From the NCBI GenBank assembly GCA_021781415.1, contig JAJXWW010000025.1, forward strand, positions 57,646 to 121,645: a stretch of DNA of 64,000 nucleotides, given 5' to 3'. Shown in pieces: positions 1,197-8,712 of this stretch. This stretch comes from Planctomycetota bacterium. Its GTDB lineage: Bacteria > Planctomycetota > Planctomycetia > Gemmatales > Gemmataceae. A program made the translations under genes and the position numbers. The notes under the pieces are model-generated. The model searched no databases, was not told the DNA's origin, and saw only the letters and a program-made list of their open reading frames with translations. Position 1 is the stretch's first letter, and each line of letters opens with the position of its first letter.

Positions 1197-4100
1197 CTAA
1201 GGCACGAAGCCGGCGCGTTTGTTTTGCCCTTTGATAAACACATCGAAATGTTCCAAGGGCAACGGCTCAAGAATCTCCTCGCTCGGTCGCTTGGCCACGA
1301 AGAAGCGCGGCTCGGACTTCGCCCCGCGCGCGATACGGACGGGGATCACCCAATACGAGTGCAGCGCCTTCATGTTTCGAGCCACCCACTTTTGGGGCGG
1401 CAACTGCTTGAAGCTCTCAAGGAGTTGTTCTTCCATCCAGCGCATCGCACCATCGTCAACGTCCAAGAGGCGCTGGCGAGATAGGGCGACTTTCGGAATC
1501 CTTCGTTCGATCCCGAAACCGTCGCGGATCGAGCGATCCAGCAGGCGCGAGGTGTCGTTATCGTTATCGCCGAGCGCGAAGATGACGGGTACCACCGGAA
1601 TACGGTGCGACCATCGAATCCAGTCTGGGACGGGATAGCCGCGGAGCTTCCAGCGCGATTCCATGCCGAGCCAAAAAGCGAGTAAGACGCTCAGCTTCTC
1701 CGGCGGTTTGAGAACGATGCGACCGTTGGGCTGATCGACGCCATTATAACGCAATCCTTCCGACGCCAGCCACAACGATCCCAAGGTCGAACCGAAACCC
1801 GCGCCGACCACGACGAGATTGAAGGTGTTGACCGGACTATCTTTCTCGTCGTGGCGCAGGTCGAGATACATGCGGGCGGCGGCGATGTCGTGGATGAGCC
1901 AGGGTAGGTATTCGGGAGGCAGTCCGTTCCAATCCAGTTTGCTCGGATGGTCGTCGAGCGGTTTGTCTCGAACGAAAGAGGGCAACAGCTTGGCGTTGAC
2001 CGAGTAATCCCAGAACGCGCGCTCGACGTTTTGGCTATCCCCGTGGCCACGAAAGTCGAACGTCAGAACCGTGTGCCCCTCGTTTTGCAGCGCTTCGGCC
2101 AGACGCTTCCATCCCGGCGTGGAACGCGATTGACCCAGATCGTGCAACATCAGCACGGTCATTCCCTTTTTGCCCCTCCATCCGTGATAGAGCGTGGCGG
2201 CAATCTCCATGTGGTCGATGGTGCGGAAGCGGACATTCTGTTGAAGGCCGCGCGGCCGAGTGATGCTCAAGGCGATGTCGCGCTCCCCGACCGTCTGTTT
2301 GCCAACCCGAAGGAGCAATTTGACCGAATACTCCCCCGGCTCGGTGCTTTTCGATACGGCGACGAGGACGTTTGCGAACGATAATTCGGGAGCGATGGTC
2401 GCAGGAGCGGCCGTCGTCCCTTCGGGAAGATTCGACAGAACCACCGTCGCCTCGGATCGATTTTGTCTTCTATCCAACAAGACGCGCAACTCGCCTTGCT
2501 TGCCCGCCTCGACCGCCAGGGAATCGGCCATCTTCTCGTTGAGACGAAGGCGCGGCGATTCTTCTGGAATCGATGGCTCAGCCTTTTTCTGAACCTGGAG
2601 CAGCAGCGCTTTGCTGTCTGCCACCACGTCAGCGACTTTCAGTTGGATCTTGAGCGGGACCGGCTGAGGCATCGTGTCTTCCGCGACGGTCAGTTTCACG
2701 CTTACAACATCGGGGGTGTCCGCGTTCATGGGCAGAGATTCCTGCCGAAGCTGAGGCGGCAGCTTCTCAAAATCGACGGACAGCGGTTCGCGGCAGGCAT
2801 TGCGCCGAACGGAGAAGGCGAACGTCTTGGAACTGCCGGCGGGACAGACGATATTTTCCGGGGGTTGCAACAGGGGGCGCGGGGTCGGCACGACCGAAAG
2901 CTGAAACGCTTGCTCCGCGCGTTTTTCGTCTCCCTGCCACAGTGAAACGCGCACCGTTCGCCGCGGAGGAACAACTCCGAGAGGGGCGATCAATCGCAAC
3001 GAGCAAGATTCTTCGTCCGCGGCCAATGACAGCACCGACGTCGCTGGAACGTCCAGCGCTTTCACCTCGTCGGGCATTCCTTCGAGGCGAAGGGTCAAGG
3101 GTTCGCGGCAATCGCGGCGATCGACGTGGATAGCGATTGTCGTCTTGAATCCCGCGCGGAGTGTCACATCGTCGAGGTGCGATAGGCTCGGCGGGCGTGC
3201 GGACGCGGAGTCGGACGATGGCTTCACGGAGGACCATACCAACACGTTCAGGACGATGAAGCTGATGAGAACGACTGCCCCCACAATAGCAAGCGAGACC
3301 GGCCGCGAGAGCAGCGACAAAACGGGATCGGCGCGAAGGGCGGCTTCGCGCGGTTTTTCTTCCCCCTCGACCGGAGGTTTGGCGTCAAGCTCGATCTCGG
3401 CGGAACTGCGTCGGCGCGCGGCGATGGCTTGCGACGGCAGCGGAGGAGGCACGGATTTGAGTTCGATCGGCTGAGTCTCGGTCAGCGAGACGGTTTGCAC
3501 GGTCGGCTCGGCAACGAGGACGCCGGTGGTAACCGAAACCATCTGCGCGGTCGCCGACGCGAGGCGCGAACGTCTCCGCGCGGGCGATTCCCCACTGAGA
3601 AGCGCCTCGACTTGCATTTCCTCGCTGTCGGACAAGGGACGCACGCCGCTTTCGTCCACCAACTCATCGAGTGCTGGCGCGACGAGGAGCGGGCCGCGGC
3701 TGGCCAAGAGGAGGTGGCCGATCAAATGGCGCGCATCACGATCTTTTAACTCCCACAATTCGCGCAGCAGGCACGATTTGCTCGGTAGGCGGAAGTCCTC
3801 TTCGCGGAATAACAAATTCTCGCCGTTGTCGTGCCGCTGCCACAGATTCGTTCCGCCGACGCGCAGACAGCGCAGAGCCGTGTAAATCAGCAGATGGGCG
3901 AAGCGATCCATCTCGCGGTCGTATCCGCCCGCGCTCAAGCGTTGGGGATGTTGATAATTGGGATGGCCGACCTCGCCGGACGGAATGTCGGCCAACGCCG
4001 GGACGAACATGCCGTCGTAGTCGATCAGCTTGAGGGCCAGCGAACTGCTTTTGCTTCCGGGCACGAGCAAGACATTGCCGTGCTGCAAATCGCCGTGTGC

Positions 4101-4559
4101 CATGCCGGCGTCGTGCAACTCTTGCCCCAGTCGCAGCCACAAGAGTGCCAGGCGTTCGAGAACGACCGGCTTGTTCGAGTGTTCGCAGACGAATTCGTTG
4201 AGTCGAAACCCTTCGACCCATCGCATTTTGACCAGGGGATACCATTGGCCGTGGACGCGGATGCCTTCGTCGAGATAGTGAAACTCAACCATGAAGGCGC
4301 GTTGTGTTTGCCGCAGATGTTCGCTGATGGCTTGGTAGCGAGGGCGCAATCCGGCCACCGGGCGCGTGAAGCACTTGATGGCCCAGCATTGTCCGTCGGC
4401 TCCCTGAATCTGATAGACGTCGGCAAAGTTTCCAGAGTGCGGACGCGGCAGACCAAATAGATCGCCGATGGCTTGCCCTTGGCGCAGATCCTCCTCGGAG
4501 AAACACAGCTGCGGATTCTGTACCGCGGCGTTGTAATCCGTGGCATGAGGCCAAGACAT
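1197..4559 (-). CDS. Transmembrane YegI/TerY-P-type protein kinase fused to a C-terminal alpha/beta-hydrolase-like domain
   Basis: WAIKCF, MAHGDLQHGNVLL and LKLIDYDGM kinase motifs; TM segment SLAIVGAVVLISFIVLNVLVW; C-terminal MTVLMLHDLGQS...VLTFDFRGHGDS...VVVGAGFGS fold signature. Start set to MSWPHATDY with an AGGAG upstream instead of the annotated TTG at 4592. Confidence 0.85.
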   Translation of the reverse strand: MSWPHATDYNAAVQNPQLCFSEEDLRQGQAIGDLFGLPRPHSGNFADVYQIQGADGQCWAIKCFTRPVAGLRPRYQAISEHLRQTQRAFMVEFHYLDEGIRVHGQWYPLVKMRWVEGFRLNEFVCEHSNKPVVLERLALLWLRLGQELHDAGMAHGDLQHGNVLLVPGSKSSSLALKLIDYDGMFVPALADIPSGEVGHPNYQHPQRLSAGGYDREMDRFAHLLIYTALRCLRVGGTNLWQRHDNGENLLFREEDFRLPSKSCLLRELWELKDRDARHLIGHLLLASRGPLLVAPALDELVDESGVRPLSDSEEMQVEALLSGESPARRRSRLASATAQMVSVTTGVLVAEPTVQTVSLTETQPIELKSVPPPLPSQAIAARRRSSAEIELDAKPPVEGEEKPREAALRADPVLSLLSRPVSLAIVGAVVLISFIVLNVLVWSSVKPSSDSASARPPSLSHLDDVTLRAGFKTTIAIHVDRRDCREPLTLRLEGMPDEVKALDVPATSVLSLAADEESCSLRLIAPLGVVPPRRTVRVSLWQGDEKRAEQAFQLSVVPTPRPLLQPPENIVCPAGSSKTFAFSVRRNACREPLSVDFEKLPPQLRQESLPMNADTPDVVSVKLTVAEDTMPQPVPLKIQLKVADVVADSKALLLQVQKKAEPSIPEESPRLRLNEKMADSLAVEAGKQGELRVLLDRRQNRSEATVVLSNLPEGTTAAPATIAPELSFANVLVAVSKSTEPGEYSVKLLLRVGKQTVGERDIALSITRPRGLQQNVRFRTIDHMEIAATLYHGWRGKKGMTVLMLHDLGQSRSTPGWKRLAEALQNEGHTVLTFDFRGHGDSQNVERAFWDYSVNAKLLPSFVRDKPLDDHPSKLDWNGLPPEYLPWLIHDIAAARMYLDLRHDEKDSPVNTFNLVVVGAGFGSTLGSLWLASEGLRYNGVDQPNGRIVLKPPEKLSVLLAFWLGMESRWKLRGYPVPDWIRWSHRIPVVPVIFALGDNDNDTSRLLDRSIRDGFGIERRIPKVALSRQRLLDVDDGAMRWMEEQLLESFKQLPPQKWVARNMKALHSYWVIPVRIARGAKSEPRFFVAKRPSEEILEPLPLEHFDVFIKGQNKRAGFVP

Positions 4560-4580
4560 CGCGCACTCCTTGTGGAATCC

Positions 4581-4607
4581 AGCCGGCAGCAAAAGCCACT
4601 GCCGGCT
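4581..4607. promoter_or_regulatory. Inverted repeat AGCCGGCAG-N9-CTGCCGGCT between the PP2C stop and kinase start
   Basis: Perfect 9-bp arms read directly. Confidence 0.4.
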
Positions 4608-5409
4608 ACTGACTAATCGCCACGAGCGTTACGTCGTCGTTGCGCAGTCGGCGTTCGTTGCGCAGTCCCTCGATCCAAGCGGCGAAAGCGTGTTGCGCCT
4701 CGTCGTCGCTGCTGCCCGGATAGATCAGCGGTTCCAACGACAGCCACGGCTTCGCTCCTGCCTCAGACTGAAGTAAAAACCACTGTGCCAAGGCGTCGGT
4801 CATCAGCCAGAATCGGTCGCCCGGTTGGCATTCGCCGTACTGTTGCAGACCGTTCTTGTTCGGCACTTCGATCGGCGAGGTGCGCGAGCCAACGAGCCAG
4901 GGTGCATTGCTGAAATCGGCGGCGCGCAAGATTGGGAATGTCCGAATCAACTCGCCGCGACGCACCTGAAATAAACAGCTGTCGCCGACTGCCAGGGCAT
5001 ACCAACTATTATCTTCAAAGACTAAACCGAGGAAAGTGGCAAACGCTCCTTGCGTCAATCCGGGTTCGAGATACCACGGCACATCGGCACTTCGCTGCCC
5101 TCCGTCCTCGGACGAACTTCTCGAAGCGAGGAATGCCGAATAGGGAGAACGGATGGCCGACAACCATCGATCTTGAAGGGACGGCAGCCAATTCGCCCAG
5201 CGGGGAAGGGGATCGTTTTGCCGCACGAACTCCTCGACGAGCAGTTGCGCCCAGAGCGCAGCGTGGGGGCTTTCGGCCGCGCCGTCGGCAATGGCAAAGC
5301 GGCCGCGCTCGGCGTCCACGGCCAAGGCATCCTGGCATTCGTCCAGGTCGTAGCCCTGACGGGGCAAGCGAAAGGCGCGAGAGCCGAGGCCGACGCCGGA
5401 CAACGCCAT
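4606..5409 (-). CDS. PP2C-family protein phosphatase-like protein
   Basis: FAIADGAAES, YALAVGDSCLFQVRRGEL, FWLMTDALAQWFL and RNDDVTLVAI correspond to PP2C motifs. Confidence 0.8.
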   Translation of the reverse strand: MALSGVGLGSRAFRLPRQGYDLDECQDALAVDAERGRFAIADGAAESPHAALWAQLLVEEFVRQNDPLPRWANWLPSLQDRWLSAIRSPYSAFLASRSSSEDGGQRSADVPWYLEPGLTQGAFATFLGLVFEDNSWYALAVGDSCLFQVRRGELIRTFPILRAADFSNAPWLVGSRTSPIEVPNKNGLQQYGECQPGDRFWLMTDALAQWFLLQSEAGAKPWLSLEPLIYPGSSDDEAQHAFAAWIEGLRNERRLRNDDVTLVAISQ

Positions 5410-5412
5410 GAC

Positions 5413-6255
5413 TCACCGTAGGTTCTTGGGATCGACTCGCGTACCGATGTCCAGAAAACGGACCACCGATGCCAAATCGGCGTTGAAGACGAAGCCACGC
5501 GAGTCGGCCGTCACCGTCAGACCCGCCTGACGCGCCGATTGAAGCATCGCTGGCGGCAGCAAGCTCGACATGCGGAACAAGCGGCGCGCGTAATCGTCGG
5601 GCAAACCCGACTCGGCATCGGGAAACTCGATGGCTTGCGAGGCAGACGACGAGATGTGGCCGTTAAACAATAAGACCGCTCCATCCTCGCTGGCCAACTC
5701 GCCCAGATTCTTGGCCGTCTCCTCGGGATTGCCGTCCGTCGCTTCTCCATCGGAGAGATTGACCACCAGAGGAGGATAGCAAGCGGGATGTTCGAGCAGG
5801 AAACCGGAGACGATTTGAATGGCTTGCTCCAGCGCTTTGCACATCGGCGTCTTCCCGTCGCCGGCCGCTTCGAACCACACCGGCGACCGGACGATCTGCT
5901 CGACCTGCCCGCCGCGTCCATCGTCCACGAGATTGGCGCGCTGTTCGACGCGCAATGGATTGCGGGCCAACTCGCCGATAGGAACCAAGACGCGCTCGGC
6001 CAACCCTCCGCCCAGCGCGGGCCGAACCTGACGGCCGTAGCCGATCACTCCGACATGAAAGCGGTCGAGGACAGTCTGTCCCCACACGCAGCGCAATACC
6101 AAGGTATACAGCAGGCGATTGAGCGAGTCGGCCACTACGTCGGCTTTCTTATTGCCCAAACCGCCGCCGATCGGTCCCAACATGGACTTCGATTGATCGA
6201 CGAGAAAGAGGAAGCAGGTAGGGTTCGAGCGGCTGATTTCCGCAGTGTAGGGCAT
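5413..6255 (-). CDS. VWA-domain protein (TerY/YegL-like)
   Basis: MPYTAEISRSNPTCFLFLVDQSKSMLGPI: DxSxS MIDAS, then KTPMCKALEQA and VNLSDGEATDG; stop is 3 nt before the PP2C start. Confidence 0.85.
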   Translation of the reverse strand: MPYTAEISRSNPTCFLFLVDQSKSMLGPIGGGLGNKKADVVADSLNRLLYTLVLRCVWGQTVLDRFHVGVIGYGRQVRPALGGGLAERVLVPIGELARNPLRVEQRANLVDDGRGGQVEQIVRSPVWFEAAGDGKTPMCKALEQAIQIVSGFLLEHPACYPPLVVNLSDGEATDGNPEETAKNLGELASEDGAVLLFNGHISSSASQAIEFPDAESGLPDDYARRLFRMSSLLPPAMLQSARQAGLTVTADSRGFVFNADLASVVRFLDIGTRVDPKNLR

Positions 6256-6417
6256 GGATGTCGCCTTTCCAGCGGGGTGCGGAGGCACCAGACACGAACG
6301 AAACGGAGGCGATGAGGAATTATACCTTTTCTCGGCCCGCTGTCGCAAGCGTTTTGTGTCGTCGATTTTGATTCCCAGAGCGTGTTTGCGAATTGACCTC
6401 CGCCGTATTATCCGGGT

Positions 6418-6857
6418 ATGAGCAAGACGCAAACCTATCCCAGCGATCTCACGGATGCCCAGTGGGCTTCTGATTCAGCCCTTGTTACCGAAACCTCACA
6501 AACGCGGCCGACGCCGCAGCCTGTATTACCGCCGTGTTTTCGACGCCATCTTCTACCTGCAAGGCACCGGCTGCCAGTGGCGACAACTAGCCCACGACTT
6601 CCCGCCCTGGGGTACGGTGGTCTCCTACTTCTGCCGCTGGCGTCAGAACGGTCTGTGGCTGCGCATCCACCACACCTCGCAAGCGGCACATCCTGGTCGA
6701 TGTCTTGGGAATGCCGATCGCTTGTGTGGTCCATGCGGCCGATGTCCAGGACGAGGATGGTTGCGAGGCCGTGTTGGACCGAGCCAAAGAACGCTTCCCG
6801 CGCCTGAAGAAGATTTGGGCGGATAGCCGCTATGCCTGCAAGCAAACGCCCCGGTGA
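6418..6857 (+). pseudogene. Degraded IS5-family (DUF4096-type) transposase remnant
   Basis: MSKTQTYPSDLTDAQW in one frame, LIQPLLPKPHKRGRRRSLYYRRVFDAIFYLQGTGCQWRQLAHDFPPWGTVVSYFCRW in the next, RKRHILVDVLGMPIACVVHAADVQDEDGCEAVLDRAKERFPRLKKIWADSRYA in the third; C-terminus missing. Confidence 0.8.
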
Positions 6858-6912
6858 GTCTGGATGATCTATGGCTGGGTTTGGCCTCCGTCCTTTTTTG
6901 AAGAGCCGGACC

Positions 6913-8712
6913 TCACGCGGCAGCGCGGCGCGGACGGCTTTCGATGTCGAACAAGCCGTACACATCCTGTTCCGTCAATCCCAGCGACGGCGGCGGACCA
7001 TTTTGCTCGATCAGTTCGTTGAACAGTTGACGTTTCTTTTCCAGCACTTCGTGGATGCGCCCTTCGATGGTTCCTTGACTGATGAAGCGCGTCACGAACA
7101 CCGACGATTTCTGGCCGAGGCGATGGGCGCGATTGATGGCCTGATCCTCAATGGCTGGGTTCCACCAGCGGTCGAATAGGAAGACATAGTTGGTGAATTG
7201 CAGATTGAGTCCGACACTGCCCGTGCCGTAGCTCATCAGAATGACGTGCTTCGTCGGGTCGGTTTTGAAGCGGTCGAGAATTGCCTGCCTGTCTTTGTGA
7301 GGGATTTTGCCGTGGTATTGTAACGGGCCGAACTCGCGCAGCGCCTCGGCGAGAGCCTCCAACGGTTCGACCCACTGCGAGAAGACGATGGCCTTGCGTC
7401 CGCTCTCGGCCACCTCGGCCATGTCCGCGAGCAATCGTTCGAGTTTGGCACTCTGTTTGGTGCGCGGATCGAAGTTGCAAATCTGTTTGAGGCGCATCAC
7501 CAGTTCAAAAACGTGTTGCACCGTCAGCGTATCGCCCAGCGCGTTGAGGTGAATCACGCCTTCCTTTTCCGCGAGATCGTAGGCGGCGCGTTGGGCGGGC
7601 GTCAACTCGACCTCGGTATCGCGGAGGATGCGCGGCGGCATGTCCGGAGCCACCTCTTCCTTGGTGCGGCGAAGGATGCAATCGCTCGTAAGGGCGGCGA
7701 GCTGATTGGCCGGCGTCTCGGGTGGAATACGATTCGCATCCACGAAGGAGAAAATGTTGACGAGATCGTCGGTACGATTTTCGACCGGGGTTCCCGTCAT
7801 GGCCCAGCTGCGGTTGCGACGCAGACCCCGCACCGCGTGCGCCGTCTTCGATTCCTTGTTCTTAATGCGTTGGGCTTCGTCGAGAACGACCACATCGAAG
7901 CGCACCCTCTCGTCGACGATCTCCGCTGCGTCGCGGGTCAACAGCTCGTAGTTGACCAGCTTTAGAGGGCAGTTCGACACCTGCCAGACCGCGCGGCGCG
8001 TCTCGGTGTCGCCGTTGATAATCTCAAACGGCACGTCCGGTGCCCACATGCGTAGCTCGCGCGTCCAGTTGATGACGAGCGGTTTCGGGCAGACAACGAG
8101 GGCGTTGTGGATCAAGCCGGCGTGAAAGAGCAGCCGCAGCGCGACGATGGTTTGCATCGTTTTGCCGAGTCCCATCTCGTCGGCGATGAGGGCGGCATCG
8201 CGCGGCATCAAGAAAGCGATGCCGCGCAACTGATACGGAAACGGCTTGAACGGCAGCGTAATTTGCTTGTTGGCAAAGATGTCTTCGAGCGGCGGTTGCA
8301 ACAAATAGAGGAGACGATCCTTGAACTGTACGGTCTCGCGCGGCGGACGCAGCTTGGTACGGATGGTTCCTTTCTCTTGCCCGCTTCCCGCACTCGGGAG
8401 TGGCAACTCCTCTTGCTCCAGCTCGGCGAGTTTGCAAGTCGGCTTCGTGACGGTAACCCCATCGGGCGGAGTGGGAAAACGCCATCCTTGTGTCGTTACG
8501 TCGAGGCCGATCTTACCCAGCGAACGAACCCACGGAGCGCTCGTCAGAAGCGTCGCCTGCCGCACGCTCACTTCCAAGGGGCGGTCGAAACGGGGAAGCG
8601 AGCGAACCTCTACCGGCAAGGTCAGGTTAATCTGGTCGATCTGGCAAAGCGGCGCAGCCTCATCCGACGGAGGAGTTTGGAGCGCTGCGCCGGGCGGCGT
8701 CGGCTCACTCAC
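6913..8712 (-). CDS. SNF2-family DEAD/DEAH-box helicase
   Basis: LIADEMGLGKTMQTIVAL, VLDEAQRIKN, MTGTPVENR, GSVGLNLQFTNYVFLFDRWWNPAIEDQAINRAHRLGQ. Confidence 0.95.
   Translation of the reverse strand: MSEPTPPGAALQTPPSDEAAPLCQIDQINLTLPVEVRSLPRFDRPLEVSVRQATLLTSAPWVRSLGKIGLDVTTQGWRFPTPPDGVTVTKPTCKLAELEQEELPLPSAGSGQEKGTIRTKLRPPRETVQFKDRLLYLLQPPLEDIFANKQITLPFKPFPYQLRGIAFLMPRDAALIADEMGLGKTMQTIVALRLLFHAGLIHNALVVCPKPLVINWTRELRMWAPDVPFEIINGDTETRRAVWQVSNCPLKLVNYELLTRDAAEIVDERVRFDVVVLDEAQRIKNKESKTAHAVRGLRRNRSWAMTGTPVENRTDDLVNIFSFVDANRIPPETPANQLAALTSDCILRRTKEEVAPDMPPRILRDTEVELTPAQRAAYDLAEKEGVIHLNALGDTLTVQHVFELVMRLKQICNFDPRTKQSAKLERLLADMAEVAESGRKAIVFSQWVEPLEALAEALREFGPLQYHGKIPHKDRQAILDRFKTDPTKHVILMSYGTGSVGLNLQFTNYVFLFDRWWNPAIEDQAINRAHRLGQKSSVFVTRFISQGTIEGRIHEVLEKKRQLFNELIEQNGPPPSLGLTEQDVYGLFDIESRPRRAAA

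Follow-up and report, generated by a model that had tools for sequence, protein, structure and literature searches.

A TerY-P-type gene triad with a predicted membrane-spanning kinase and a probably inactive hydrolase-like outer domain in Gemmataceae

Results

Three closely packed genes on the minus strand of the window (the whole stretch of 64,000 nucleotides analysed here, from a Gemmataceae genome) raise a key question: do they form a TerY-P triad of the type found in conflict systems, or a form of it in which the kinase crosses the membrane as a receptor? TerY-P triads have been described in connection with tellurite resistance, clusters linked to restriction and defence against phage. They are reportedly treated by Anantharaman in 2012 and Gao in 2020, and Gao et al. 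are said to have tested, in 2020, an anti-phage TerY-P system. The features of the locus, in window coordinates, are as follows.

1197-6255, minus strand: VWA-PP2C-kinase locus of three ORFs
5413..6255, minus strand: TerY-like VWA protein, 280 aa, MIDAS intact (PADLOC TerY, MIDAS residue conservation)
4606..5409, minus strand: PP2C-family phosphatase, 267 aa, metal-ligand Asp D42/D143/D205/D259 (Pfam PP2C_2, PADLOC PP2C, residues)
1197..4559, minus strand: predicted membrane-spanning kinase, 1120 aa (ORF, PADLOC profile, hydropathy, relatives' loci)
3627..4559, minus strand: predicted cytoplasmic Ser/Thr-type kinase domain, aa 1-311, K62/D157/N162/D180 (PADLOC STK_OB, residue conservation)
3294..3626, minus strand: linker, aa 312-422 (no profile match; dN/dS 0.29)
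3237..3293, minus strand: predicted single transmembrane helix, aa 423-441 (hydropathy 2.93)
2889..3167, minus strand: Ig-like beta domain, aa 465-557, moderate confidence (AlphaFold strands, pLDDT about 65-88)
1248..2246, minus strand: predicted alpha/beta-hydrolase fold, aa 772-1104 (AlphaFold, Foldseek, family alignment, dN/dS)

The VWA frame runs from an ATG at 6255 to a stop at 5413 and the kinase frame from an ATG at 4559 to a stop at 1197, with gaps of 3 nt between VWA and PP2C and 46 nt between PP2C and kinase, so that both the positions and the spacing given in a preliminary description of this DNA were accurate. AAGGAG, resembling a ribosome-binding site, lies upstream of the kinase ATG. 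A close relative (G039) carries the identical gene trio in the identical order, and dN/dS between the two genomes is 0.10-0.16 for each triad gene; thus, the locus is not a chance arrangement, and the low dN/dS also rules out a decaying one.

An IS-family transposase remnant is located at 6400-6912; relatives with 95-100% identity recur on C84, C101 and further contigs of the same genome, and the window copy lacks ~130 internal bases found in the C84 copy. Farther upstream of the triad, at 6913-8712, lies an SNF2-type helicase gene, which was rejected as a fourth triad member because it is absent beside the G039 triad and the IS remnant intervenes.

All three proteins matched PADLOC TerY-P profiles: the VWA protein matched TerY (E 9.8e-95), the phosphatase PP2C (E 1.5e-27) and the kinase STK_OB (E 5.2e-69, covering profile positions 1-308 of 562). 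PP2C_2 in the phosphatase was the sole Pfam profile above cut-off among the triad proteins; Pkinase (4.7e-5) fell below cut-off in the kinase and the VWA match was weak (0.02), so a Pfam-based survey could miss both proteins. The MIDAS residues of the DxSxS motif (D20, S22, S24), together with T136 and D169, are invariant wherever covered in 39 relatives, and the four PP2C aspartates are conserved in 32-33 of 33. The kinase contains the motifs HGDLQHGN and DYD; D157, N162, D180 and D182 are conserved in 64/64 relatives and K62 in 62/64. Profile matches and intact catalytic and metal residues thus support the identification of the three genes as a TerY-P triad. The preliminary description had read an intact MIDAS, a PP2C-like phosphatase and a kinase with HGDLQHGN/DYDG motifs from the letters, had assigned them to such a triad and had proposed HMM searches of each domain; this reading held throughout, including for the N-terminal kinase, and the assignment gains further support from gene linkage in most Gemmataceae relatives (below).

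A further question is whether the kinase crosses the membrane. The segment at aa 423-441 has a mean hydropathy of 2.93 versus 1.5 for the next best, and 679 aa follow it; the helix proposed earlier therefore stands, and the ~600 aa assigned to the extracytoplasmic part was too low. The flanks of this helix carry equal small net charges (+1/+1). Relatives were searched in 95 Gemmataceae genomes, and 57 kinases, which are the strongest matches and not a random draw, were read in context. Exactly one transmembrane helix follows the kinase domain in 52 of the 57, and the mean net charge around it in these kinases is +3.4 before and +0.6 after. Hydropathy and charge thus support a predicted topology in which the kinase N-terminus is inside and the outer part extracytoplasmic. 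With outer domains of typically extracytoplasmic kinds in the relatives, the earlier suggestion of a transmembrane receptor kinase is strengthened. Profile searches found no domain in the linker of ~110 aa, and neither an OB fold nor a zinc ribbon on the window kinase, positions 308-562 of STK_OB being unmatched.

An AlphaFold model covering aa 455-1120 displayed an alpha/beta-hydrolase fold with pLDDT mostly >90, preceded by the moderately confident Ig-like domain; aa ~560-766 between the two are mostly of low confidence. The modelling proposed in the preliminary description was informative for the outer part; for the kinase domain alone, modelled without an alignment, it was uninformative (pLDDT 35). 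In the PDB, Foldseek retrieved hydrolases, feruloyl and cinnamoyl esterases among them, at E about 1e-9 and with TM-scores of ~0.6-0.8 to the target. The position of the nucleophile is occupied by G921 and that of the catalytic His by Q1029, and D1000 is kept at the acid position. Among 28 aligned family members, none has a nucleophile Ser (17 G, 6 E, 2 D, 2 Q, 1 K; D or E thus occurs in eight, and the window protein has neither), the His position is variable, and the acid-position Asp is present in 28/28. When the family profile was aligned to a solved MHETase, the nucleophile position fell opposite the catalytic Ser of its G-x-S-x-G motif. The pair of a nucleophile Ser or Cys and a catalytic His that marks an active alpha/beta-hydrolase is therefore absent, and the outer part, on alignment and model, is a predicted inactive hydrolase fold, which the earlier account had not recognised, rather than an uncharacterised stretch.

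Stand-alone members of the family (~315-430 aa) occur in many Gemmataceae and other planctomycetes; a simple hydropathy rule assigns a signal-like N-terminus to 28 of 36, which indicates that the fold is normally located outside the cytoplasm. Loci of this pseudo-hydrolase family (L041:5709-6923, L099-L118, L119-L142) are widespread in planctomycetes, mostly signal-bearing and without the catalytic Ser. Between this genome and G039, dN/dS is 0.096 for the hydrolase domain, 0.092 for the kinase domain and 0.27 for the Ig-like and linker region; the hydrolase domain is under purifying selection. The lost catalytic residues, the signal-like relatives and the low dN/dS make it most likely that the outer hydrolase domain is a conserved, non-enzymatic binding domain. 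Kinases of this hydrolase type were found in at least three genera (g1, g10, g12); the trees need 2-3 changes, and the fusion may have had one or more origins.

How general, then, is the triad? Some match to the window kinase protein was present in 93 of the 95 Gemmataceae genomes, with strong kinase-domain matches in ~31, and the VWA protein was found in 46. Few such kinases occur outside Gemmataceae: a sample of 294 taken across the phylum yielded one strong match, and a class sample of 199 contained two genomes with them. Linkage was counted on the 49 kinases with >1.8 kb of upstream DNA: VWA was linked to 36, PP2C to 30, both to 29 and neither to 12; by chance alone, ~0.2-0.3% of kinases would have a VWA gene within 5 kb. 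The neighbourhood survey called for in the preliminary description thus found the three genes together in most Gemmataceae relatives. In the genus-mates L043 and L045 the VWA gene lies directly beside the kinase and PP2C is absent; these cases and the 12 kinases without partners indicate that the triad is not obligatory.

The source genome contains a second triad on contig C117 (L040:8043-13637), in which the outer domain of the kinase is DUF1349. Gemmataceae also have a more distantly related TerY-type arrangement (L203, L204, L205), which spans about 10-12 kb and comprises a kinase of ~920-1075 aa, large unrelated ORFs, a VWA protein and a VWA-PP2C fusion protein; these or similar kinases (L096-L098) showed no transmembrane helix.

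The outer domains of the relatives include WD40 propellers, PA14, LamG, ricin-type and C-type lectins, DUF1349, FGE-sulfatase and 3-keto-disaccharide hydrolase, and several outer parts had no Pfam match. One clade of five kinases in the kinase tree (support 100/98) has differing outer parts: FGE in L054, LamG/PA14 in L049, 3-keto-disaccharide hydrolase in L051 and, by similarity, a WD40-like part in L050. These comparisons show that Gemmataceae retained the cytoplasmic kinase part and swapped the outer domains, which would yield a set of receptors. On one contig, two closely related kinases (L062:168-1688 and L062:6036-11456) differ in the length of the outer part (93 and 1381 aa); the pair has the appearance of a recent duplication in which the outer domain was lost or exchanged.

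Discussion

TerY-P triads are known and so are Gemmataceae receptor kinases; in the open literature, to which our search was confined, we found no paper joining the two. With known triads the locus shares the three gene kinds, the kinase profile match, the MIDAS and the linkage; it differs in that its kinase ends in a predicted transmembrane helix and outer domain, where known TerY-P kinases have an OB fold or a zinc ribbon. TerY-P with an OB-fused kinase is an anti-phage system, and TerY-P with a zinc-ribbon kinase accompanies CoCoNuTs (PMC11090510, PMC10889362). Gemmataceae possess ~100-140 Ser/Thr kinases, and planctomycete kinases are mostly membrane proteins with a single transmembrane helix and periplasmic domains (PMC11032199). 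The window kinase, with a kinase domain, one helix and an outer domain, is by architecture a Gemmataceae receptor-type Ser/Thr kinase: a cytoplasmic kinase, one helix and varied outer domains are common to it and to the published kinases with periplasmic WD40, TPR, FGE or DUF1080. Unlike that set, it falls below the Pfam Pkinase cut-off; von Willebrand domains, operons and neighbours are not mentioned in that paper's text.

Two other systems invite comparison. In Kaur et al. (PMC7159879), actinobacterial GAP1-N2 neighbourhoods hold the same three gene kinds, and the kinase, linked to PP2C and vWA, is at times fused to transmembrane helices, which gives a triad with a membrane link some precedent; there the linkage is embedded in GTPase conflict systems, and the passages on it describe no large swapped outer domains. 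The preliminary description also saw a match to E. coli yegI/yegK/yegL. YegL-PphC-YegI does offer a VWA protein, a PP2C and a kinase nearby in similar order; the likeness of gene kinds stands, whereas pairwise BLAST was near noise (E 0.11 for the kinase, 0.09 for PP2C and 0.001, a weak local match, for VWA), YegI by our sequence reading has a transmembrane hairpin without a large outer domain, and yegJ on the opposite strand interrupts the genes. Direct kinship is thereby rejected, and E. coli yegLKI is, on these comparisons, a remote parallel only.

The data are probably best explained by a TerY-P triad of membrane-receptor type, as predicted from the sequence and the outer-domain model. Could it instead be an anti-phage TerY-P system in which the kinase is merely membrane-anchored? 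The PADLOC profiles match, and TerY-P protects Pseudomonas aeruginosa from phage (PMC10889362). We nevertheless regard this as unlikely: the OB-fold portion of the profile is unmatched, the outer domains are of lectin or propeller type, the window triad has no visible defence context, and its neighbours resemble housekeeping genes. Within 2.5 kb of the triads there were no recurrent defence genes, save generic kinase matches and matches of the window SNF2 helicase, and these genes give no support to a defence island.

It is quite improbable that the C-terminal half is a cytoplasmic effector of the kind that conflict systems swap. Kaur et al. 2020 (PMC7159879) do document swapped FGS and other effector domains together with the actinobacterial vWA-PP2C-kinase linkage; against this, across the family the kinase has a single helix with the more positive charge on its inner flank, the outer domains are of kinds usual in secreted proteins, and stand-alone hydrolase relatives carry signal-like N-termini. 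A working enzyme that uses other residues is very improbable. The modelled fold is intact, the acid-position Asp is universal in the alignment and selection is purifying, but G, E, D, Q or K at the nucleophile position and a variable His position argue against it.

In the receptor form of the triad, the kinase would be cytoplasmic and anchored by its one transmembrane helix. Most likely, the Ig-like strands and the catalytically dead hydrolase fold would bind a small-molecule ligand or a partner in the cell envelope and thereby alter kinase activity. The kinase would autophosphorylate and also phosphorylate partners in the cytoplasm, PP2C would remove the phosphorylation and reset the system, and the VWA protein, through its MIDAS metal site, would bind a peptide or partner and assemble the complex; the roles of PP2C as eraser and VWA as adaptor are suggested by what is known of their families. 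The plant receptors GID1, D14 and KAI2 are alpha/beta-hydrolase folds that serve sensing; they are soluble and not fused to kinases, and in D14 and KAI2 the catalytic triad is retained. Their use of a hydrolase fold for sensing may be compared with the window outer domain by analogy only. Tentatively, TerY-P signalling may have become a receptor repertoire in Gemmataceae, with one kinase chassis and exchangeable outer sensors, among them a dead alpha/beta-hydrolase as ligand-binding receptor, a possible bacterial parallel to the hydrolase-derived plant hormone receptors.

Conclusions

Known from phage defence, this signalling module seems in Gemmataceae to form a family of membrane sensors whose outer domains can be exchanged. 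The conserved, mostly secreted pseudo-hydrolase family becomes an object of study in itself, and a triad whose predicted membrane-crossing kinase bears an identifiable outer domain offers a direct way to ask what switches the triad on. The data also suggest that, in a kinase-rich lineage, general signalling may be served by a module that conflict systems use too.
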